From: Dugong dugon
Taxonomy: Eukaryota > Chordata > Mammalia > Sirenia > Dugongidae
Assembly: GCA_030035585.1 (NCBI GenBank)
Contig: CM057464.1
Coordinates: 29,467,465 to 29,531,464 of the forward strand
Direction: 5' to 3'
Length of the DNA: 64,000 bases
The position numbers and the translations under genes are program-made. Shown here piece by piece: positions 1 through 42,841 of this stretch. A model generated the notes under the pieces. That model was not told where the DNA came from and searched no databases. It saw nothing but the letters and a program-made list of their open reading frames with translations. How positions within the stretch are numbered: position 1 is the stretch's first letter; each line of letters begins with the position of its first letter.

Positions 1-1190
1 GTATGAGACCTCTATTGTAAAAACCCGTGAAAAAGTTTACGCACAAAATGTAACAATCTTTGTTAGTTACAAGGGATGGGTGGGGTGGGGAAAATACTAA
101 ATAAGCAGTAGATAAGTAGTATGTTTGGGGAAGGGTGAGACAGTACACAATACTGGGGAAACCAGCACAACTTGTATAAGGAAAGGTCATGGAAGCTCCA
201 TAGATACATCGAAACTCCCTCAGGGACTGAATTGCTGGGCAGAGGGCTGTGGGGACTATGGTCTCAGGGAACATCTAGCTCAATTGGCATAACATAGTTT
301 ATAAAGACAATGTTCTACATTCTACCTTGGTGAGTAGCATCTGGGGTCTTAAAAGCCTGAGAGAAGTCATCTAAGATACTCCACTGGTCTCACCCCTTCA
401 GGAGCAAAGGAGAACGAAGAGCACAGGATACAAGGAAAAGATTAGTCCAAAGGACTAATGGACCACAGCTACCAAGGCCTCCACGAGACTGAGTCCAGTA
501 AAGCTAGATGGTGCCCAGATACCACCACTGACTGCTCTGACCAGGATCACAACAGAGGGCTCTGGACAGAGCTGGAAAAGGATGTAGAACAAACGTCTAA
601 CACACACACACAAAAGACCAGATTTACTGGCCTGAAAGAGACTGGAGAAACCCTGGGAATATGGCCCCCAGACACCCTTTTAGCTCAGTGGTGAAGTCAC
701 TTCTGAGGTTTACCATTCAGCCGGGGATTGGACAGCCCCATAAAACCAAATGAGACTAATGAAGCACAGCAGTCCAGGGACAAGGACTAGAAGGCAGAAG
801 GGGACAGGAAAGCTGGTGATAGGGAACCCAAGTTTGAGTAAGGATAATGTTGATGTGAGGTTGTTAACCATTGTCATAGGGCAACATGTGTACTGTTTAA
901 AGAGAAACTATTTTGTTCTGTAAACCTTCATCTAAAGTGAGAATAGCAGCGCAACTAGAAGAACATAATCTATGTCACTGAACTGTGCACATAGAAATTT
1001 TTGAAATTGTGTGTCTTTGGCTATGTATATTTTCACCAAAAAAAAAAAAAATAGTTCGACGAGGGAGAGGGTTGACATGTCGTGGGGTTGTTAACCAATG
1101 TCATAAAGCAATATATGTGCTGACTATTTAATGAGAAACTGTTTGTTCTGTAAACCTTTACCTGAAATACAATTAAAACAAAAATAAAAG
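1..1190 (+). mobile_element. Young afrotherian L1, 3' end (last ORF2 codons and whole 3' UTR)
   Basis: The window opens on the last codons of L1 ORF2 (Met-Arg-Pro-Leu-Leu, stop TAA at 18-20), the same C-terminus as in the L1 copies ending at 11389, 20200 and 39048. The rest is a 1.17-kb 3' UTR that matches those copies along its length. It holds a G-run block at 73-90, a first terminal-like block ending near 940, an L1-type end with an A-run at 1038-1051, and a second terminal-like block at 1085-1171. The A-rich end near 1190 is the decayed tail. The 5' part of this copy lies outside the window. Confidence 0.9.
73..90 (+). other. G-quadruplex-type polypurine motif in L1 3' UTR
   Basis: GGGATGGGTGGGGTGGGG lies about 50 bases after the ORF2 stop and fits the four-run G-quadruplex pattern with one-base loops. 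The equivalent site recurs in the other L1 copies (11319-11336, 38977-38995, 57814-57834 on the minus strand; weaker at 20254-20273). A G-rich polypurine tract is a known conserved trait of mammalian L1 3' UTRs. Confidence 0.7.
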
Positions 1191-1309
1191 TACAGTTCTA
1201 GTTAAAGTAGTGATAGTCCTTTAAACATGTTTGGCATCCAAGTGACTAAAAGTTTAGTACTTTAAAAACATTTTCTCAGTAAACATGTAGAACAAAACTC
1301 AAATTCCTA

Positions 1310-10219: not shown

Positions 10220-13200
10220 TTTTTTTTTTATTGTAGTCAGGTGAAGGTTTACAGAACAAATAGTTTCTCATTAAACAGTCAGTACACATATTGTTTTATG
10301 ACATTGGTTGACAACCCCATGACATGTCAACTCTCTCGCTTCTCGACCTTATTATTATTATTTTCTTTTTGGTGAAAATATACATAGCCAAAGATACACC
10401 ATTACAAAAATTTCCACATGCACAGTTCAGTGACATTGATTACATTCTTCCAGTTGTGTTGCTATTCTCACTTTAGATGAAAGTTTACAGAACAAAATAG
10501 TTTCTCATTACACAGTACACGTTACCCTATAACATTGGTTAACAACCCCACTACATGTCAACACTGTCCTTACTCAACCTTGGGTTCCCTATCACCAGCT
10601 ATCCTGTCCCCTTCTGCCTTCTAGTCCTTGTCCCTGGACTGCTATGCTTCATTAGCCTCATTTGGTTTTATGGGGCTGTCCAATCCCCGGCTGAATGGTA
10701 AACCTCAGAAGTGACTTCACCACTGAGCTAAAAGGGTGTCTGGGAGCCTTACTCTCGGGGTTTCTCCAGTCTCCTTTAGGCCAGTAAATCTGGTCTTTTT
10801 TTTTGTGAGTTAGAATTATGTTCTACATCCTTCTCCAGCTCTGTCCAGAAACCTCTGTTGTGATCCTGGTCAGAGCAGTCAGTGGTGGTATCTGGGCACC
10901 ATCTAGCTTTACTGGACTCAGTCTCGTGGAGGCCTTGGTAGCTGTGGTCCATTAGTCCTTTGGACTAATCTTTTCCTTGTATCCTGTGCTCTTCGTTCTC
11001 CTTTGCTCCTGAAGGGGTGAGACCAGTGGAGTATCTTAGATGACTGCTCTCAGGCTTTTAAGACCCCAGATGCTACTCACCAAGGTAGAATGTAGAACAT
11101 TGTCTTTATAAACTATGTTATGCCAATTGAGCTAGATGTTCCCTGAGACCATAGTCCCCACAGCCCTCTGCCCAGCAATTCAGTCCCTGAGGGAGTTTCG
11201 ATGTGTCTATGGAGCTTCCATGACCTTCCTTGTACAAGTTGTGCTGGTTTCCCCAGTACTGTGTACTGTCTCACCCTTCCCCAAACATACTACTTATCTA
11301 CTGCTTATTTAGTATTTTCCCCACCCCACCCATCCCTTGTAACTAACAAAGATTGTTACATTTTGTGTGTAAACTTTTTCATGGATTTTTACAATAGAGG
11401 TCTCATACAATATTTGTCCTTTTGTGATTGACTTATTTCACTCAGCATAATGTCCTCCAGTTTCATCCATGATATGAGATGCTTCACAGATTCATCATTG
11501 TTCTTTATCTTTGCATAATACTCCGTTGTGTGTATGTACCATAGTTTGTTTATCCATTCATCTGTTGATGGGCATCTAGGCTGTTTCCATGTTTTTGCTA
11601 TTGTGAACAATGCTGCCATGAACATGGGTGTGCATATATCTATTCGTGTGATGGCTCTTATTTCTCTAGGGTATATTCTAAGGAATGGGATTGCTGGATT
11701 GTATGGTGTTTCTATTTCTAGCTTTCTAAGGAAGCGCCATATCGTTTTCCAAAATTGTTGTATCATTTTGCATTCCCACCAGCAGTGCAGAAGAGCTCCT
11801 ATCTCCCCGCAGCCCCTACAACATTTGTTATTTCCAGTGTTTTTGATTCGTGGGAATAATGCTGGGGTGAGATGGTGTCTCATTGTGCTTTTAATTTGCA
11901 TTTCTCTAATGGCTAGTGATCGCGAGCATTTCCTCACGTGTCTGTTGGCCGCTTGAATGTCTTCTTTGGTGAAGTGTCTGTTCATTTCCTTTGCCCATTT
12001 GTTAATAGGATTACTTGTCCTTTTGTTGTAGAGTGTTGGATTTTCTTGTAGATATTAGAGATTAGAACTTTGTCTGAGTTGTACTGCCCAAACTTTTTTT
12101 CCCAGTCTGTAGGTTCTCTTTTGACTCTTTGGTGAAGTCTTTTGAAGAGCATAGGTGTTTGATTTTTAGAAAATCCCTGTTATCTAGCTTATCTTCGGAT
12201 GTTTGTGTGTTGATGGTTATGGTTTGTATTCTGTTAATGCCATGTATTAAGGCCCGAAGTGTTGGTCCTATTTTTTCTTCTATGAACTTTATAGTTTTAG
12301 GCTTTATAGTTAGGTATTTGATCCATTTTGAATTAGTTTTTGTATATGGTGTGAGGTATGGGTCCTGTTTCATTTTTCTGCAGATGGATATCCAGTTTTG
12401 CCAGCACCATTTGTTAAAAAGATTGTCTTTTCCCTAGTTGATGGACTTTGGGCCCTTGTTGAAGATCAGGTGACTGTAGGTGGATAGATTTACATCCGGG
12501 TCCTCAATTCTGTTCCATTGGTCAGTGTATCTGTTGTTGTACCAGTTACCAGGTTGTTTTGACTATCGTAGCCATATACTAGGTTCTGAGGTCAGGTAGT
12601 GTGAGTCCTCGTACTTTATTCTTCTTCTTCAGTAGTGCTTTACTTATTTGGGGATTCTTCCCTTTCCATATAAAGTTAATGATCAGTTTTTCCATCTCTT
12701 TGAAGAATGTTGTTGCTATTTGGATCAGGATTGCATTGTATTTGTAAATTGCTTTGAGTGGAATTGTCATTTTCACAATGTTGAGTCTACCTATCCATGA
12801 GCATGGCATCTTTTTCCATTTATGTAGATCCTTTCAGGTTTCTTGCAGTAGTGTTGTGTAGTTTTCTTTGTATAGGTCTTTTACACTCCTGGTTAGATTT
12901 ATTCCTAAGTATTTTATATTTTTAGGGGCTATTATAAATGGTATTGTTTTCCTGATTTCCTTTTCATTGTTCTCTTTACTGGCGTTTAGGAATCAGACTC
13001 ACTTTTGTATGTTAATCTTGTATCCTGCTACTCTGCTGAATCTTTCTATTAGTTCCAGTAGATTTCTTGTGGAGTCTTTAGGGTTTTCTATGTATAGTAT
13101 CATATCCTCTGCAAACATGGACAGTTTAACTTATTCATTACCAATTTGGATGCCTTTTATTTCTTTTTCTTGCCTTATTGCTCTAGCTAGAACTTCCAGC

Positions 13201-13975
13201 ACAATGTTAAATAGGAGTGGTGATAAAGGGCATCCTTGTCGTGTTCCTGTTTTCAAGTGGAGTGTTTTCAGCCTCTCTCCATTAAGAATGATGTTGGTGG
13301 TTGGTTTTGCATAGATGCCCTTTATTATGTTGAGAAATTTCCCTTCTATACCTATTTTATTGAGAATTTTTTTTTTCAGGAATGGGTATTGGACTTTGTC
13401 AAACGTCTTCTCCCTCAATTGAGATGATCATGTGATTCTTTTCTTTCCTTTTATTTCTGTGGTGGATTACGTTGATTGATATTCTAATGTTGAACCATCC
13501 TTGCATAGCTGGTATGAATCCTACTTGGTTGTGGTGTATTATTTTTTTGATATGATGCTGAATTCTATTGGCTAGAAGTTTGTTAAGAATTTTTGCATCT
13601 ATATTCATGAGAGATATTGGCCTGTAATTTTCTTTTTTTGTGGCATCTTTGCCTGGTTTTGGTATCAAGGTTATGCTGGCTTCATAGAATTAATTAGGAA
13701 GCATTGCTTCCTTTTCTATGCTCTGAAATAGCTTGAGTATTACTGGTACAAGCTCTTCTCTGAATGTTTAGTAGAATTTTCCAGTGAAGCCATCTGGGCC
13801 AGGGCTTTTTTTGGTTGGGAGTTTTTTTTTTTATTACCTTTTCAATCTCTTCTCTTGTTATGGGTCTGTTCAGATATTCAGCATCACTTTGTTGTAGTTT
13901 GGGTAGGCTGTGTGTTTCTAGAAATTTATCCATTTCCTCTAGGTTTTCAAATTTGTTGGAGTACAGTTTTTCATA
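10220..13975 (-). mobile_element. Young L1, 5'-truncated, antisense
   Basis: Begins with a T-run (antisense of the poly(A) tail), followed by the complete 1.16-kb 3' UTR (10231-11388) and the last two thirds of ORF2. It stops abruptly at 13975 inside ORF2, the usual result of incomplete reverse transcription. The flanks 'agtatcgtattatttt' (10200-10215) and 'ggtattgtagtttta' (13976-13990) look like a decayed target duplication, and the ancient L1 resumes beyond both. Confidence 0.9.
11389..13975 (-). pseudogene. L1 ORF2 fragment (reverse transcriptase to C-terminus), broken
   Basis: This encodes the remains of the L1 endonuclease/reverse transcriptase from about residue 430 of a usual 1260-1270 to the stop at 11389-11391. 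The endonuclease domain is missing. The RT region is recognisable: the 'GFIPAMQGW' and '[17 protein letters not shown]' blocks are readable. The active-site motif reads Phe-Ala-Glu-Asp instead of Phe-Ala-Asp-Asp, so a catalytic aspartate is lost. The C-terminal Cys/His segment ('[18 protein letters not shown]') is still present. Several frameshifts and stops split the frame, for example near 13418, 13690 and 12400. It cannot make a working enzyme. It shares a near-identical inverted tract with the L1 at 14541-21393. Confidence 0.9.
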
Positions 13976-14145
13976 GGTATTGTAGTTTTAAAATCTGGTA
14001 CACATATGTTCATTGTTAGTATATAGCAATACAATTTATTTTTGTGTGCTTATCTTGTATCCTATGACACTGCCAAACTCATTTATTAGTTCTATAAGGT
14101 TTTGGGATTTTCTACATAGGCAATTATGTCATCTGCAGATAAAAA

Positions 14146-14360
14146 AATAAAAATAAAACCAGTTTTTTTCCAAATCTGATTCATAGGAACCCAGTGTGTG
14201 TCAGAGTAGAGCTGTACTCTACAGAGTTTTCAATGGCTGATTATTTGGAAGCAGATCATCATGGTTTTCTTTAAAGGCACCTCTGGATGGACTCAAACCT
14301 CCAACCTTTCAGTTAGCAGCTGATCATATTGACTGTTTTCACTACCCAGGAACCACCATT
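14146..14360 (-). mobile_element. AfroSINE, diverged
   Basis: Antisense copy with an A-rich tail (14146-14160), 'tctgattcataggaaccc' tail region, central 'ggaagcagatcatcatgg' block and decayed head. It lies within the ancient antisense L1, which continues on both sides. Confidence 0.8.
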
Positions 14361-14540
14361 TCAAATGGGGAGGTTTTTATTTTTCTCTTTTAAATGTGTA
14401 TGCCTTATTTTTCCTTGCCTTATAGTACTGGCCAGAGCTTCTAGCACCGTAGAATAAGAGTGGTGAGAGTAGACATCTTGATTTTCTCTGACTCTTTCAG
14501 GGAGAACACTCAGTCTTTCACCATTAAGAACAGTGGTACC

Positions 14541-14908
14541 GAGAGTTCCAGCAAGATGGCACTCTAGGCAGAAGCACCACGCCGTCCCTCCACAGCAAAG
14601 ATCTGAAAAACTAAGCCAAACAGAGAATGCAGCAATCCTGAAACCCTAGAACATCAAATGAAGAGATAAAGAACTCAGCCAAGCACCAAATGGAGTGAGA
14701 ATACTGACAGAGAACAGAGAGCGAGGAGAGATTCATGCAGAGGTCCCCTACCAGCTAACGCAGCACGGATCCACCATCTTGGACTCCTATCGGAGACCAG
14801 CAAACGGGGGTACAAAAAAGAAGCCTCACGGAGCGTCCAGTGGGAGACAAAACAGCTGGGACAAAACAAACAAATCTAAAATCAATAAACGAGAGAAATA
14901 ACTACTGA
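14541..14908 (+). promoter_or_regulatory. L1 5' UTR/promoter, internally altered
   Basis: The first 12-20 bases contain CAAGATGGC, a YY1-type site at the place where human L1 also has one that sets the transcription start. A second, inverted copy (CCACCATCTTGG) lies near 14770-14781. Compared with the 560-base 5' UTR at 44323-44882, this one is about 190 bases shorter, with unrelated sequence at roughly 14811-14875. Confidence 0.65.
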
Positions 14909-15941
14909 ATGCCCCGAAAACAGCAAACAATATCAAAACATTTACAAAAACAGTACAGGATGGTTCCAGTAGGCATCCAAATTAAAACACCAGATGACTC
15001 TCCTGTGGAAGAAAATGCACTAGAAGTACCTGATAGGGAATTCAAATCTCTAATACTCGGAATTTTCCAAGAACTGTGGCAAAAAGCTGACAAACATGAG
15101 GAAAAAATAGACAAATTCATGGAAAATACAGACAAAAAATTGGAATAATTCAGGAAGACGATGCAGGAACAAAATGCCAAAATAAATTCACAACTAGAAA
15201 TTATACAAAAACAACAATTAGAAATCCAAAGGATAAACAAGATTTCAGAAATGGGTGATGTCATAAAAGGGCTGAGAAGCAGATTTGGAAGAAAGGATCA
15301 GTGGAACTGAAGACAAACACTTGGATACAACTCTGTTTCAGGAAAACTCAGAAAAAAAAAAAACAAAGAAAAATGAAGAGACCCTGAGAGTTATGTGGGA
15401 CACATTTAAAAGCAAAAATTCACGAGTGAGGCATTCCAGAACAGGGGAGAAAACAGAAAACACAGAGAGGATCATTGAGGAACTGCTGACAGAAAACTTC
15501 CACAATATTATGAAACATGAAAAGCTGGCCATCCAAGAAGCTCAACGAACCCCATATAGAAGAGACCCCCCAAAAAATCACCAAGGCATATCATATTCAC
15601 ACTTGCCAAAACCAAAGACAAAGACTACTGAGAGCAGCTCGTGAAAAACAAGAAGTCACATACAGAGGAAAAACAATAAGACTAAGCTCAGATTATTCGG
15701 CAGAAACCATGCAGGCAAGAAAGCAGTGGGATGACATATATAAAATCTTGAAAGAAAAGAATTGTCAGCCAAGAATAAAATATCCTGCAAAACTCTCGTT
15801 CAAATTTGATGGTGAAATTAGGTCATTTCCTGATAAACAGAAACTAAGGGAATATGTAAAATCAAACCAAACTTACAAGAATTATTAAAGGGATTTCTTC
15901 AATCTGAGGAAAAACAGCTTCAGCCCACAGGCAGAACCTAG
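14909..15941 (+). pseudogene. L1 ORF1 (RNA-binding protein), broken
   Basis: ORF1 encodes the L1 RNA-binding, nucleic-acid chaperone protein that trimerises through a coiled coil. The start ATG at 14909 opens the same N-terminus (MPRKQQTISKHLQKQ) as the intact ORF1 at 43273-44322. The frame stops after 79 codons (TAA at 15146-15148, where the intact copy has a Glu codon). Later frameshifts near 15285, 15520 and 15640 split the coiled-coil, RRM and C-terminal parts. The stop of the family frame is at 15939-15941. The L1 at 56720-64000 carries a stop at the same codon. Confidence 0.9.
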
Positions 15942-16372
15942 GACGCAGGATCGTATGAGCCGGATACCAAACTAGGAAATGAACTCTCAAGGAATATCCA
16001 AAACCAAAAGAAATACAACAGGGAATCAGAGCAGTCAAACGATGGATGACAACAACATCAAAACAATGAAAGAGGGAATAAACAGCATAGGTATAGAACC
16101 TTCTAATGGAGAGGAAGGCAAGGCGATACCAAGTAAGGGTAGACTGTTTCAAACTTAGAAAGATAAGGGTAAAATTCATGGTAACCACAAAGAAAGTTAA
16201 CAAACTGACTCATAAAAATAAAGATGAAAAACATTAAGTCTCAGCAAAAACAAAACCTATAAAAACAAAAGAAATGAAAAAAAAAGTCCACAAACAGAAG
16301 TAACTCAGCACAAGAGAGTAAGAAGAACAAGGAGCACTTCAGCACCAGAAAAAAAAAAAAAAGCACTACAAA

Positions 16373-19300
16373 CTGACAGCAACAAACTCACACCTATCAA
16401 TAATTACACTGAATGTAAATGGACTCGATGCACCCATAAACAGATGGAGAGTGACAGAATCGATAAGAAAACAGGATCCATCAATATGCTGTCTACAAGA
16501 GACACACCTTAGAAACAACAATGTGAATTTATTAAAAGTCAAAGGTTGGAAAAAAATATATCCAGCTAACAACTACCATAAAAGACCAGGACTGGCAATT
16601 CTAATCTCAGATAAAATAGACTTCAAAATAAAATCTACCATAAAAGACAAAGAAGGACACTATATAATGGTTAAGGGGATTATCTGTCATGAAGACATAA
16701 CCATAACAGACATCTACGCACCCAATGACAGGGCTCTAAAATACATAAAACAAACTCTAACAACACTGAAGAGAAATCTACAGTTCCACAATAATAGTAG
16801 GAGACTTCAACACACCACTCTCAGTAAAGGACAGAACAACTAAGAAGAAACTCAGCAAAGATACAGAAGACCTAAAGGGCACAATCTGCCAACTTGATCT
16901 CATAGACATATATAGAGCACTCCATCCAACTGCTGCAAAGTACACATTCTTTTCCAATGCACATGGAACGTTCTCCAAAATAGACCACATCTTAGCCCAC
17001 AGAGCAATCCTCAACAAGATCCAAAATGCTGAGATAATTCAAAGTATCTTCTCTGACCACAATGCCATCAAGGTAGAAATTAACACTAGAAAGAGCAAGG
17101 AAAAAAAAATCAACTACATGGAAACTGAATAATACCCTGCTTACACATCAGTGGGTAATAGAAGAAATCAGAGATGGAATCAAAAAATTCCTAGAATCAA
17201 ATGAAAATGAAAACACATCATACCAAAACCTTTGGGACACAGCAAAGGCAGTCCTCAGAGGACAATTTATAGCAATAGATGCACATATCAAAAAAGAAGG
17301 AAGGGACAAAATCAAAACATTAACTATAGAACTCAAACAAATAGAAAGAGAACAGCAAAAAAAGCCCACAACCACAGGAAGAAAGGAAATAGTAAACATC
17401 AGAGCAGAAATAAATGAAATAGAGACCAGAAAAACAATAGAAAACATCAACAAAACCAAACGTTGGTTCCTTGAAAGAATCAACAAAATCAACAAACCAC
17501 TGGCCAGAGTGACAAAAGAAAAACAGGAGAGGACACAAATAACCCAAATAAGAAATGAAATGTGGGACATTACAACAGACCCAACTGAAATAAAAAGGAT
17601 TATAACAGAATATTATGAAAAACTATACTCCAATAAATTTGAAAACCTAGAGGAAATGGATAAATTTCTAGAAACACACAGCCTACCCAAACTACAACAA
17701 AGTGATGCTGAAAATCTGCACAGACCCGTAATAAGAGAAGAGATTTAAAAGGTAATAAAAAAACTCCCAACCAAAAAAAGCCCTGGCCCAGATGGCTTCA
17801 CTGGAAAATTCTACTAAACATTCAGAGAAGAGCTTGTACCAGTAATACTCAAGCTATTTCAGAGCATAGAAAAGGAAGCAATACTTCCTAATTAATTCTA
17901 TGAAGCCAGCATAACCTTGATACCAAAACCAGGCAAAGATGCCACAAAAAAAGAAAATTACAGGCCAATATCTCTCATGAATATAGATGCAAAAATTCTT
18001 AACAAACTTCTAGCCAATAGAATTCAGCATCATATCAAAAAAATAATACACCACAACCAAGTAGGATTCATACCAGCTATGCAAGGATGGTTCAACATTA
18101 GAATATCAATCAACGTAATCCACCACAGAAATAAAAGGAAAGAAAAGAATCACATGATCATCTCAATTGAGGGAGAAGACGTTTGACAAAGTCCAATACC
18201 CATTCCTGAAAAAAAAAATTCTCAATAAAATAGGTATAGAAGGGAAATTTCTCAACATAATAAAGGGCATCTATGCAAAACCAACCACCAACATCATTCT
18301 TAATGGAGAGAGGCTGAAAACACTCCACTTGAAAACAGGAATACGACAAGGATGCCCTTTATCACTACTCCTATTTAACATTGTGCTGGAAGTTCTAGGT
18401 AGAGCAATAAGGCAAGAAAAAGAAATAAACGGCATCAAAATTGGTAATAAAGAAGTTAAACTGTCCATGTTTGCGGAGGATATGATACTATACATAGAAA
18501 ACCCTAAAGACTCCACAAGAAATCTACTGGAACTAATAGAAAGATTCAGCAAAGTAGCAGGATACAAGATAAACATTCAAAAATCAGTTGGATTCCTATA
18601 CACCAGTAAGGAGAACGGCGAAAAGGAAATCAGGAAATCAATACCATTTTCAATAGCCCCTAAAAAGATAAAATATTTAGGAATAAATCTGACCAGGGAT
18701 GTAAAAGACCTATACAAAGAAAACTATAAAACACTACTGCATGAAACCCAAAGGGATCTACATAAATGTAAAAACATACCATGCTCATGGATAGGTAGAC
18801 TCAACATTGTGAAAATGGCATTTCTACCCAAAGCAATTTACAAATACAATGCAATCCCGATCCAAATAGCAACAACATTCTTCAAAGAGATGGAAAAACT
18901 AATCATTAACTTTATATGGAAAGGGAAGAAGCCCCGAATAAGTAAAGCACTACTGAAGAAGAAGCATAAAGTTGGAGGACTCACACTACCTGACTTCAGA
19001 ACCTACTATACAGCTATAGTAGTCAATACAGCCTGGTACTGGTATAACGACAGGTACATTGACCAATGGAACAGAATTGAGAACCCAGATGTAAATCCAT
19101 CCACCTACGGTCACCTGATCTTTGACAAGAGCCCAAAGTCCATCATATGGGTAAAAGACAGTCTTTTTAAAAACAAACGGTGCTGGCAAAACTGGATATC
19201 CATTTGCAAAAAAATGAAACAGGACCCGTAACTCACACCATATACAAAAACTACTTCAAAATGGATCAAAGACCTTAATATAAAGCCTAAAACTATAAAG

Positions 19301-20200
19301 TTCATATAAGAAAAAATAGGACCAACACTTCAGGCCTTAATACATGGCATTAACAGGATACATACCATAACCATCAACGCACAAAACCCAACAGATAAGC
19401 TAGATAACTGGGATCTTCTAAGAATCAAACACCTATACTCTTCAAAAGACTTCACCAAAAGAGTCAAAAGAGAACCTACAGACTGGGAAAAAATTTTTGG
19501 ACAGTACAAGTCAGGCAAAGGTCTAATCTGTAAAATCTACAAGAAAATCCAACACCTCTACAACAAAACGACAAATAATCCAGTTAAAAAATGGGCAAAG
19601 GAAATGAACAGACACTTCACCAAAGAAGACATTCAAATGGCCAACAGACACATGAGGAAATGCTCGCGATCACTAGCCATTAGAGAAATGCAAATTAAAA
19701 CCACAATGAGATACCATCTCACCCCGGCATTACCGGCACGAATCAGAAACACTGGAAATAACAAATGTTGAAGGGGCTGCGGGGAGATGGGAACTCTTAT
19801 GCACTGCTGGTGGGAATGCAAAATGATACAAACATTTTCGAAAATGATATGGCTCTTCCTCAGAAAGCTAGAAATAGACATACCATTCGATCCAGCAATC
19901 CCACTCCTAGGAATATATCCTAGAGAAATAAGAGTCGTCACTCGAATAGACATATGCACACCTGTGTTCATGGCAGCATTGTTAGCAATAGCAAAAGGAT
20001 GGAAACAACGTAGGTGCCCATCAACAGATGAATGGATAAACAAACTATGGTACATACACACAATGGAGTACTATGCAACGAGAAAGAACAACAATGAATC
20101 TGTGAACCATCTCATAACATGGATGAAACTGGAGGACATTATGCTGAGTGAAATAAGTCAATCACAAAAGGACAAATATTGTATGAGACCTCTATTGTAA
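16373..20200 (+). pseudogene. L1 ORF2 (endonuclease/reverse transcriptase), broken
   Basis: This is the full span of L1 ORF2: apurinic-type endonuclease at the N-terminus ('[10 protein letters not shown]' near 16490, 'APND' near 16720), reverse transcriptase in the middle, and Cys-rich C-terminus ('HCWWEC' near 19805). The start codon is lost: where the 42841 copy has ATG, this has CTG (16373-16375). The RT active site reads Phe-Ala-Glu-Asp (near 18471-18482) instead of Phe-Ala-Asp-Asp. Frameshifts and stops cut it into pieces; the longest open stretch is 354 codons at 18167-19231. The stop TAA is at 20198-20200. It cannot work. Confidence 0.93.
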
Positions 20201-21380
20201 AAACCCATGAAAAATTTCTCACTCAAAATGTAACAATCTTTGTTGTTTACCATGGATGGGAGTGGTGGGTGGAGGAAATACTAAATAGGCTATAGATAAG
20301 TGGTATCTTGGGTGAAGGGTGAGACAGTACACAATACAGGGGAAACTAGCACAACCTGTCCAAGGAAAGGTCATGGAAGCCCCATAGACACATCCAAACT
20401 CCCTGAGGGACTGAATTGCTGGGCGGAGGGCTCTGGGTACCATGGTCTCTGGGAACTTCTAGCTCAATTGTTATGACACAGCTTATAAAGACAATGCTCT
20501 TCATTCTACCTTGGTGAGTAGTGTCTGGGGTCTTAAAAGCCTGTGAGCAGCCATCTAAGATACTCCACTGGTGTCATCCCGTCGGGAGCAAGGGATAATG
20601 AGGAGAACAGGATAGAAGGAAAAGATTAGTCCAAAGGACTAATTGTCCACAGCTACCAAGGCCTCCACCAGACTGAGTCTAGTATAGCTAGATGGTACCC
20701 GGCTACCACCACTGACTGTTCTGACCAGGATCATAACAGAGGGTTCTGGACAGAGCTGGAGAAGGATGTAGAGCAGAATTCTAACTCACAAAAAAAAAAA
20801 AAAAGAGAGACCAGATTTACTGGCCTAAAGGAGACTGGAGAAACCTCGAGAGTATGGCCCCCAGATACCCTTTTAGCTCAGTGGTGAAGTTACCTCCGAG
20901 GTTCACTGTTCAGCCAGGGAGAGGATAGCCCCGTAAAACCAAGTGAGACTAACGAGGTACAGGAGTCCAGTGACAAGGGTCAGAAGGCAGAAGGGAACAA
21001 GGAAGCTGGTGATAGGGAACACAAGGTTGAGTAAGGATATTGTTGATGTGTTGTGTGATTGTTAACAATTGTCATAGGGCAACATTTGTAGTAACTGTTA
21101 AATGAGAAACTATTTCATTCTGTAAGCCTTCATCTTAAGTGAGAATAACAGCCAATTGGAAGAGCGTAGTCAATGTCACTGAACTGTGTATGTAGAAATT
21201 TTTGAAATGGTGTATCTTTGGCTATGTGCATTTTCGCCAAAAAAAAAAAAAGAAAGGTTGAGAATTTAGAGGGTTAATATTTTGTGGGGTTGTTAACCAA
21301 TGTCATAAAACAACATGTGTACTATGTTTTCATGAGAAACTATTTGTTCTGTAAGCCTTCACCTGAAGTACAATAAAATA
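20201..21380 (+). other. L1 3' UTR (1.18 kb), modular
   Basis: Unusually long for a mammalian L1. From 5' to 3' it has a G-rich tract (20254-20273), about 800 bases of unique UTR, terminal-like block A (about 21057-21142), an L1-type end 'gtcaatgtcactgaactg' to 'ttttcgccaaaaaaaaaaaa' (21168-21251), and terminal-like block B (about 21286-21373). Blocks A and B are imperfect direct repeats of about 85 bases. The same layout occurs in the other copies. Confidence 0.8.
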
Positions 21381-21623
21381 TTTTTTAAAAAAAAAGAATA
21401 GTGGTACCATTAGGTGTTTTGTAAATGCTGTTTATATCATGAATGGATGGTGAATTTTGTCAATTGTTTTTTCAGATCAATTGACCATGTGATTTTTCTA
21501 ATTTATCCTGCTAATGTGGTGGATTACATGAATTGATTTTCAAACATTGAACCTGCCTGTACCCCTGGAATAAAAATCACTTGGTTATGGTCTTGAATAA
21601 ACTTCACTTGGTCATGATGTATA

Positions 21624-39047: not shown

Positions 39048-42000
39048 TTACAATAGAGGTCTCATACAATATTTGTCCTTTTGTGATTGACTTATTTCAC
39101 TCAGCATGATGTCCTCCAGTTTCATCCATGTTATGAGATGGTTCACCGATTCATTGTTCTTTCTCGTTGCATAGTACTCCATTGTGTGTATGTACCATAG
39201 TTTGTGTATCCATTCGTCTGTTGATGGACATCGAGGTTGTTTCCATCGTTTTGCTATTGTGAATAATGCTGCCATGAACATAGGTGTGCATATGTCTATT
39301 CGAGTGATGACTCTTATTTCTCTAGGATATATTCCTAGGAGTGGGATTGCTGGATCGAATGGTACGTCTATTTCTAGCTTTCTGAGGAAACGCCATATCA
39401 TTTTCCAAAATGGCTGTATCATTTTGCATTCCCACCAGCAGTGTATAAGAGTTCCCGTCTCCCTGCAGCCCCTCCAACATTTGTTATTTCCAGTGTTTTT
39501 GATTCGTGCCAGTAATGCCGGGGTGAGATGGTATCTCATTGTGGTTTTAATTTGCATTTCTCTAATGGCTAGTGATCGCGAGCATTTCCTCATGTGTCTG
39601 TTGGCCATTTGAATGTCTTCCTTGGTGAAGTGTCTGTTCATTTCCTTTGCCCATTTTTTGATAGGATTGGTTGTCTTTTTGTTGTAGAGGTGTTGGATTT
39701 TCTTGTAGATTATGGAGATTAGACCTTTGTCTGACTTGTACTGTCCAAAAATTTTTTCCCAGTCTGTAGGTTCTCTTTTAACTCTTTTGGTGAAATCTTT
39801 TGAAGAGCATAGATGTTTGATTTTTAGAAGATCCCAATTATCTAGTTTATCTGTTGGGTTTTTTGTGTTGATGTTTATGGTTTGTATCCTGTTAATGCCA
39901 TGTATTAAGGTCTGAAGTGTTGGTCCTATTTTTTCTTCTATGAATTTTATACTTTGAGGCTTTATATTCAGGTCTTTGATCCATTTTGAAGTAGTTTTTG
40001 TATATGGTGTGAGGTATGGGTCCTGTTTCATTTTTCTACAAATGGATATCCAGTTTTGCCAGCACCATTTGTTAAAAAGACTGTCTTTTCCCCATTTGAT
40101 GTATTTTGGGCCCTTGTCAAAAATCAGGTGACCGTAGGTGGATGGATTTACATCTGAGTTCTCAATTCTGTTCCATTGGTCAATGTCTCTGTTGTTGTAC
40201 CAGTACCAGGCTGTTTTGAGTACTGTAGCTGTATAGTAGGTTCTCAAGTCAGGTAGTGTGAGTCCTCCAACTTTATTCTTCTTCTTCAGTAGTGCTTTAC
40301 TTATTCGGGGTTTCTTCCCTTTCCATATAAAGTTAATAATTAGTTTTCCATCTCTTTGAAGAATGTTGTTGGTATTTGTATCGGAATTGCATTGTATTTG
40401 TAAATTGCTTTAGGTAGAATTGCCATTTTCACAATGTTGAGTCTGCCTATCCATGAGCATGGTATGTTTTTCCATTTATGTAGATCCCTTTGGGTTTCAT
40501 GCAGCAGTGTTTTGTAGTTTTCTTTGTATAGGTCTTTTATATTCCTGGTCAGATTTATTCCTAAGTATTTTATCTTTTTAGGGGCTATTGAAAATGGTAT
40601 TGATTTCCTGATCTCCTTTTCATCGTTCTCTTTACTGGTGTATAGGAATCCAACTGATTTTTGAATGTTTATCTTGTATCCTGCTACTCTGCTGAATCTT
40701 TCTATTAGTTCCAGTAAATTTCTCGTGGAGTCTTTAGGGTTTTCTATGTATAGTATCATATCATCTGCAAACAGGGAGAGTTTAACTTCTTCATTACCAA
40801 TTTGGATGCCCTTTATTTCTTTCTCTTGCCTTACTGCTCTAGCGAGAACTTCCAGCACAATGTTAAATAGGAGTGGTGATAAAGGGCATCCTTGTCTTGT
40901 TCCTGTTTTCAGGGGGAATGTTTTCAGCCTTTCTCCATTAAGAATGATGTTGGCTGTTGGTTTTGCATAGATGCCCTTTATGATATTGAGAAATTTCCCT
41001 TCTATACCTATTTTATTGAGAGCTTTTATCAGGAATGGGTGTTGGACTTCATCAAATGCCTTTTCTGCATCAATTGAGATAATCATGTGATTTTTTTCTT
41101 TCCTTTTATTTATGTGGTGGATTACGTTGATGGATTTTCTAATGTTAAACCATCCTTGCATACCTGGTATGAATCCTACTTGGTCGTGGTGTATTATTTT
41201 TTTGATATGATACTGAATTCTATTGGCTAAAATTTTGTTCAGAATTTTTGCATCTATATTCATGAGAGATATTGGTCTGTAATTTTCTTTTTTTGTGATG
41301 TCTTTGCCTGGTTTTGGTATCAGCGTTATGCTGGCTTCATAGAATGAATTTGGAAGTGTTGCTTCCTCTTCTATGCTCTGAAATAACTTGAGTAGAACTG
41401 GTACGAGCTCTTCTGTAAATGTTTTGTAGAATTCTCCAGTGAAGCCATCTGGGCCAGGGCTTTTTTTGGTTGGGAGTTTTTTTATTACCTTTTCAATCTC
41501 TTCTCTTGTTATGGGTCTGTTCAGATTTTCAATATCACTTTGTTGTAGTTTGGGTAGGCCGTATGTTTCTAGAAATTTATCCATTTCCTCTAGGTTTTCA
41601 AATTTGTTGGAATATAGTTTTTCATAATATTCTGTTATAATCCTTTTTATTTCAGTTGGGTCTGTTGTAATGTCCCCCATTTCATTTCTTATTTGGGTTA
41701 TTTGTGCCCTCTGCTGTTTTTCTTTTGTCAGTCTGGCCAGTGGTTTGTCGATTTTGTTGATTCTTTCAAAGAACCAACTTTTGGTTTTGTTGATTCTTTC
41801 TATTGTTTTTCTGTTCTCTATTTCATTGATTTCTGCTCTGATCTTTACTATTTCCTTTCTTCCGGTGGTTGTAGGCTTTTTTTGTTGTTCTCTTTCTATT
41901 TGTTTGAGTTCTGTAGTTAATGTTTTGATTTTGTCCCTTTCTTCTTTTTTGATATGTGCATCTATTGCTATAAATTGTCCTCTGAGGACTGCCTTTGCTG

Positions 42001-42841
42001 TGTCCCAAAGGTTTTGGTATGAGGTGTTTTCATTTTCATTTGATTCTAGGAATTTTTTAATTCCATCTCTGATTTCTTCTATTACCCATTGATGTGTCAG
42101 CAGATTATTATTCAGTTTCCATGTGTTTGATTTTTTTTCCTTGCTCTTTCTAGTGTTAATTTCTACCTTGATGGCATTGTGGTCAGAGAAGATACTGTGA
42201 ATTATTGCTCTGTGGCCTAAGATGTGGTCTATTCTGGAGAACGTTCCATGTGCATTGGAAAAGAATGTGTACTTTGCAGCGGTTGGATGGATTGTTCTAT
42301 ATATGTCTATGAGGTCCAGTTGGCTGATTGTGTCCTTTAGGTCTTCTGTATCTTTGCTGAGTTTCTTTTTAGTTGTTCTGTCCTTTACTGAGAGTGGTGT
42401 GTTGAAGTCTCCTACTATTATTGTGGAACTGTCAATTTCTCTTTTCAGTGCTGTTAGAGTTTTTTTTATGTATTTTGGAGCCCTGTCATTGGGTGCATAG
42501 ATATTTATTATGGTTATGTCTTCATGATGGATCATCCCCTTAATCATTATATAGTGTCCTTCTTTGTCTTTTATGGTAGATTTTGTTTTAAAGTCTATTT
42601 TATCTGAGATTAGAATTGCCACTCCTGCTCTTTTTTGATAGTTGTTAGCTTGATATATTTTTTTCCAACCTTTGATTTTTAATAAATTCACATCTTTGTT
42701 TCTAAGATGTGTCTCTTGTAGACAGCAAATAGATGGATCCTGTTTTCTTATCCATTCTGCCACTCTCCGTCGCTTTATGGGTGCATTGAGTCCATTTACG
42801 TTCAGTGTAATTATTGATAGATGTGAGTTTGTTGCTGTCAT
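39048..42841 (-). pseudogene. L1 ORF2 (endonuclease/reverse transcriptase), single frameshift
   Basis: ORF2 nicks target DNA and copies L1 RNA at the nick. ATG at 42839-42841; frame open for 833 codons to 40340, then open again in another frame to the stop at 39048-39050; total near 1264 residues, the normal L1 length. Endonuclease: 'ITLNVNGLN' (residues ~10-18), 'LQETHLRN' (~40), 'VGDFNTPLS' (~146), 'SDHNAI' (~220). RT: 'LFADDMILY' near residue 690 (40760-40771) with the Asp pair intact. C-terminus: '[19 protein letters not shown]' Cys/His motif. The only lesion I see is a missing base in the T-run at 40344-40347, which has four T where other copies have five. It may be a true deletion or a sequencing error in a homopolymer. 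Confidence 0.92.

Follow-up and report, generated by a model that had tools for sequence, protein, structure and literature searches.

Gene conversion between inverted L1 neighbours as the best explanation of an identity island in the dugong genome

How can two L1 retrotransposon copies that have drifted apart along most of their length be letter-for-letter identical in one sharply bounded stretch? The question is raised by a 64,000-nucleotide stretch of the dugong (Dugong dugon) genome (assembly GCA_030035585.1, contig CM057464.1; C6:29467465–29531464), termed the window, in which the L1 copies E, B and A follow each other on the plus, minus and plus strands, so that B is inverted relative to both E and A. 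L1 copies are denoted by letters, positions without a contig label are window coordinates with negative values lying to the left of the window, and genome-wide matches were drawn from the 3.158-Gb assembly. Copies A and B are 90.6% identical overall across 3.8 kb; the scan that yielded an RVT_1 match comprised copy A only, and copy B is tied to L1 by this identity. Copy A appears to be an insertion of its own, with flanking repeats of 14 bp that match at 13/14 positions by eye, whereas no clear target-site duplication was found for copy B, just 7- and 8-base candidates. Regarding an exchange of flanks between the two, A has its repeats on both sides and none were detected for B; only an outgroup could reveal whether the spacer was inverted. 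The data presented below make non-allelic gene conversion between these two separately inserted, inverted L1s the best explanation of the island, and we regard it as very probable.

The first-pass annotation of this DNA had described an exact inverted identity of 458 bases with sharp edges. A recount returned 458/458 bases as exact reverse complements between 13244–13701 and 17884–18341, and the nearest differences lie where they had been placed, at A17883/B13702 on one side and at A18342/B13243, then A18366/B13219, on the other. Past 17883 the identity resumes for another 126 bases, until an A-run (A17756) differs in length. Segmentation of the A–B alignment accordingly resulted in one strong low-difference segment of 585 columns with 1 difference, compared to a background of 9.3%, and it scored 50.5, whereas none of 200 block shuffles exceeded 18.4. 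Divergence, for which a sliding-window comparison had been proposed, is not uniform: away from the island the number of differences per 100-column bin ranges from 2 to 21 and usually falls between 5 and 15, against 1 in 585 within it. By our own arithmetic, 458 identical bases at 9.3% divergence have a chance of about 4e-20. The run is the longest among the 209 repeat pairs in the 274 kb surveyed, with a permutation p of 1/2001, which is the floor of the test and was also reached by two other pairs with much shorter runs. Among the 276 pairs formed by 24 copies of the region it ranks second (median 87, 95th percentile 146), a pair on C2 being first, and in a GENECONV-like test (10 copies, 45 pairs) it was matched in 0/1000 permutations. 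Among the 40 scored of 8068 candidates elsewhere in the genome, the best match to the tract reaches 93% identity. The island is sharply limited and much more similar between the two copies than the sequence around it, one of the features expected of a non-allelic gene conversion tract.

The states carried by the island were compared with 22 other genomic copies; 10 columns lacking a 70% majority were dropped, leaving 575 of 585. A and B agree against the majority in 27 columns, with one B-only and no A-only column, and 14 of these 27 states were seen in none of the 22 copies. The homopolymer and damaging changes that had been reported within the island were located as a 10-base run at 18209–18218, stop-making columns and a 2-base deletion common to A and B (frame taken as the second L1 frame); two stop-making states that were looked up and the deletion occur in 0/22 other copies. 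Directly to the right, columns private to A or to B reappear. The alignment itself displays the tracts with their boundaries, as well as common states that few or none of the other compared copies possess. FastTree analysis of 17757–18341 placed A and B as sisters (support 0.999, distance 0.002), in conflict with the tree outside the tract, where for 18577–18822 B and E are sisters (support 1.0), the A–B distance is 0.196, and A groups with another copy (0.79). Together, the sharp island, the pair-specific states and the change of nearest relatives between inside and outside support gene conversion well, and the earlier proposal of such an event between the inverted copies stands on these three lines.

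A possible course of events is as follows. B (5′-truncated, minus strand) and A (plus strand) would have inserted separately; long afterwards, one arm would have been broken and then repaired from the inverted other arm by non-crossover homologous recombination, copying about 0.6 kb with its disabling mutations and leaving the outer parts divergent. The repair may have proceeded by synthesis-dependent strand annealing, either inside a single chromatid or between sister chromatids. An earlier and wider A–B exchange would have reached to about A18570, and B would have exchanged at least two tracts with E, likewise inverted to B. The one difference in 2 × 585 bases corresponds to 0.09% per copy (Poisson 95% upper limit 5.57 differences, or about 0.5% per copy, by our own arithmetic), compared to a tract deviation from the majority of 27/575 (4.7%), indicating that, measured against the age of A, the last exchange was recent. 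In the adjoining columns (17614–17756 and 18342–18570) A deviates at 18/371 (4.9%) and B at 9/371 (2.4%). The tract thus resembles the surroundings of A, and we infer with moderate confidence that sequence was copied from A into B. The opposite direction, with B as template and A as recipient, is a weaker, though by no means negligible, possibility: the tract value is also near the B-only rate of 58 in 1300 positions (18900–20199), but it is at odds with the low deviation of B in the columns adjoining the tract.

Several observations weigh against this account. The evidence stems from one assembly and one individual, and the GENECONV-like test flags distant pairs too, such as B–G (direct, 124 kb; 0/1000) at 20730–20894, a segment that six pairs have in common and that we therefore attribute to subfamily sharing. 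As to direction, B deviates at 24/250 and 21/277 in 18571–18822 and 18823–19100, and A at 8/250 and 6/277, so the tract fits the far regions of neither copy and the direction is uncertain. Moreover, private changes are more numerous in A than in B (7 versus 1 in 18342–18570, 12 versus 3 with the left flank included), a surplus that a simple A-to-B event does not predict and that is unexplained.

The zone adjoining the tract, 18342–18570, points to an older layer. A and B are still sisters there (support 0.90, tree distance 0.048), and comparison with the other copies yielded 4 A=B columns, 7 A-only, 1 B-only and 1 differing in both. A Phe-Ala-Glu-Asp (FAED) change had been reported as common to the two copies and taken as a sign of close kinship. 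The change is indeed present in both, outside the island, and includes one A=B column; the motif reads FADD in 18/22 other copies, the A=B base occurs in 0/22, and copy L033 arrives at FAED by another base. The conclusion of kinship does not necessarily follow, as A and B are sisters in 18342–18570, but B is sister to E, without A, in 18577–18822. A parallel change could explain the FAED site alone. For the zone as a whole, an older, wider A–B conversion is a simpler reading than inheritance from a common source, because an L1 with a damaged reverse transcriptase is not expected to found a lineage by itself.

The A–B event is not isolated, as B also has tracts in common with its other inverted neighbour, E (Table 1). 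The E–B background divergence is 9.7%, and the GENECONV-like test gave a global p of 0.001 for this pair. For the direct pair E–A, with 13.7 kb between the copies, segmentation found no segment above the shuffled null. Within the 3.7 kb common to the three copies, states that depart from the majority of five others are exclusive to A and B in 29 columns, to B and E in 81 and to A and E in 5. Copy B is a mosaic with tracts in common with both inverted neighbours, and its tracts of different ages, together with the direct E–A pair as internal control, provide a testbed for the effect of orientation.

Segmentation in the neighbourhood covered the pairs A–B, E–B, E–A, F–G and H–I only. F–G was not called a tract, its score falling under the 95% level of the null, and neither was H–I, which scored between that level and the maximum of the null. 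The latter is an inverted L1 pair (window coordinates 160360–167947 and 168452–176018, 505 bp apart) with an identical run of 101 bp at 17% divergence, perhaps an old, faded tract. The other pairs with low permutation p in the 274 kb were H–I, A–H (inverted, 139 kb, run of 157) and two direct pairs more than 70 kb apart.

Comparable inverted pairs on C2, C20 and C12 surfaced in lists of best matches, which favour look-alike partners, so that they attest recurrence and not a rate. The C20 copies, 15.5 kb apart, differ at 13 of 2228 bp and, beyond about 2 kb, at roughly 9%. The C12 copies, 13.9 kb apart, differ at about 9% over 650 bp and then at 16 of 2815, in a tract that reaches the edge of the compared stretch. 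The C2 copies, 7.2 kb apart, show 0 differences over 6301 bp, and their homologous 5′-side sequence is 84.6% alike, although the arrays of 5′ repeats there may have been aligned in the wrong register or extend past the compared stretch. For a 1337-bp piece of this pair the next best copy is 97% identical. The C2 pair represents either a conversion of the whole element that took place very recently or two insertions from one source, both very young.

These data hint at a preference for one orientation. Among pairs within 20 kb, 3/16 inverted and 0/12 direct reached p ≤ 0.001, and at identity ≥85% the same survey gave 2/5 versus 0/3, which is not significant. Among the listed matches (best 40 each of seven lists, 273 distinct places), pairs closer than 20 kb outside the window region comprised three inverted (C2, C20, C12) and one direct (C6:150.19 Mb). 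All five pairs with a clear tract are inverted and within 16 kb, with few tests on the direct side. We advance only tentatively that inverted L1s within about 20 kb here convert often, with long tracts up to near-whole elements, and that direct neighbours either fail to do so or disappear through deletion. If true, inverted L1 pairs would turn into small palindromes and dead alleles would spread among neighbours. The direct pair listed is C6:150187154 (−)/150200343 (−), 13 kb apart; an eighth list contained, by eye, the inverted pair C8:15660686 (+)/15693769 (−), 33 kb apart.

Conversion by break repair has to be weighed against replication template switching between the inverted arms, whether as quasi-palindrome correction, at a stalled fork or by microhomology-mediated break-induced replication (MMBIR), which would bypass homologous recombination. 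The arms are inverted and close and the tract edges sharp, as this process would have it. Literature on template switching usually concerns short arms, and here the arms lie 4.2 kb apart and the copied stretches measure 0.2–6.3 kb, longer than such arms usually are. Polymerase switching is described as homogenizing the arms of short inverted repeats in the portion of PMC8604942 drawn on here; it resembles the present case in its outcome, but the tract length and spacing seen here fit break repair better, and we consider template switching improbable.

An assembly or polishing artefact, in which one arm was filled or corrected with the sequence of the other, is less probable still. Mis-polishing would be expected to leave just such a perfect match of 458 bp within a repeat, and the 6301/0 of the C2 pair is suspiciously perfect. 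However, the window is without N (63 N in the 274-kb neighbourhood), and the E–B (5/517), C20 (13/2228) and C12 (16/2815) tracts lie between 0 and the approximately 9% of their flanks, as does, at an intermediate level, the older A–B zone with its tree distance of 0.048. The partial re-divergence of the E–B, C20 and C12 tracts argues against an artefact as the general cause; the C2 pair and the A–B island show no re-divergence. Finally, the view of A and B as close relatives from one source, with the island as a slowly changing stretch, finds some encouragement in their 90.6% identity but can be dismissed, since the tract shows ordinary variation among other copies (2.5% mean deviation from the majority, 5.1% pairwise), A and B have different closest relatives outside it, and the common states include stops and a deletion.

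Inverted pairs held alike may be fragile sites and substrates for inversions. Conversion of neighbouring L1s resets their apparent age, makes mosaics misleading in subfamily trees and carries disabling mutations between copies without retrotransposition. Conversion between nearby transposable elements is already known; what is added here is a clear L1 case with layered ages, in which a single copy has tracts in common with its inverted neighbours on both sides, and, as hinted by the data, a recurrence in inverted L1 pairs. An exact-phrase literature search found no L1–L1 gene conversion, a weak test with subscription literature mostly outside its scope. For neighbouring Alus in primates, the portions of PMC8230782 and PMC6598467 drawn on here describe non-allelic gene conversion within about 10 kb at 89–100% similarity. 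These portions likewise report homogenized stretches between dispersed retroelement copies, whereas the present elements are L1s with longer tracts and one copy has tracts in common with both inverted neighbours. PMC8230782 contains neither the word "inverted" nor "orientation", and PMC6598467 lacks "inverted". On the human Y chromosome, palindrome P6 shows arm-to-arm conversion with a mean tract of 2068 bp and rare inversions, according to the portion of PMC3723533 drawn on here. There too inverted copies are held alike through conversion, but those arms are >99.9% alike, whereas here independent insertions of about 90% likeness are involved on a contig not known as a sex chromosome.

Table 1 Coordinates of the L1 copies, tracts and tract pairs.
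Feature	Position	Strand or arrangement	Remarks
L1 copy A	14541–21394	+	Apparently full-length, broken; flanking direct repeats at 14527–14540 and 21395–21408
L1 copy B	10220–13975	−	5′-truncated; 3′ end near 10220; tracts in common with both neighbours
L1 copy E, 3′ end	1–1191	+	Start about 6.5 kb left of the window
Open frame in copy A	18167–19231	+	RVT_1 match, E 7.2e-20; overlaps the A–B tract
A–B conversion tract in copy A	17757–18341	+	585 bp, 1 substitution; exact core 17884–18341
A–B conversion tract in copy B	13244–13828	−	Exact core 13244–13701
Older A–B zone in copy A	18342–18570	+	B 13243–13015; A and B still sisters; contains FAED at A 18470–18481 (B 13115–13104)
E–B tract 1 in copy B	12772–12982	−	211 bp, 0 differences versus E at −1568 to −1358 (left of the window)
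E–B tract 2 in copy B	10852–11367	−	517 columns, 5 differences
E–B tract 2 in copy E	42–558	+	Partner of B 11367–10852
C20 tract pair	70369473–70372323 with 70388236–70385410	Inverted	About 0.6% difference beside stretches at about 9%
C12 tract pair	34727915–34730728 with 34743942–34741128	Inverted	About 0.6% difference beside stretches at about 9%
C2 pair (L044–L047)	138093978–138100278 and 138101597–138107897	Tail to tail	About 1.3 kb between

Two further observations concern other parts of the sequence. A beta-globin-like cluster lies at C9:77588875–77620727, where exon 2 is matched in full four times and in part once, the best identities being 80% and 79% over 75 residues to 3vre_B, the beta/delta hybrid chain of woolly mammoth. 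A much closer match would be expected in an elephant, so the elephant origin implied by the first-pass annotation is not supported and the genome is probably not elephantid. Copy C (window 41000–42400) yielded 1449 first-look candidates, which is few, and 13/39 other listed matches are at 95–97%; this segment may belong to a younger or rarer subfamily than its neighbours.

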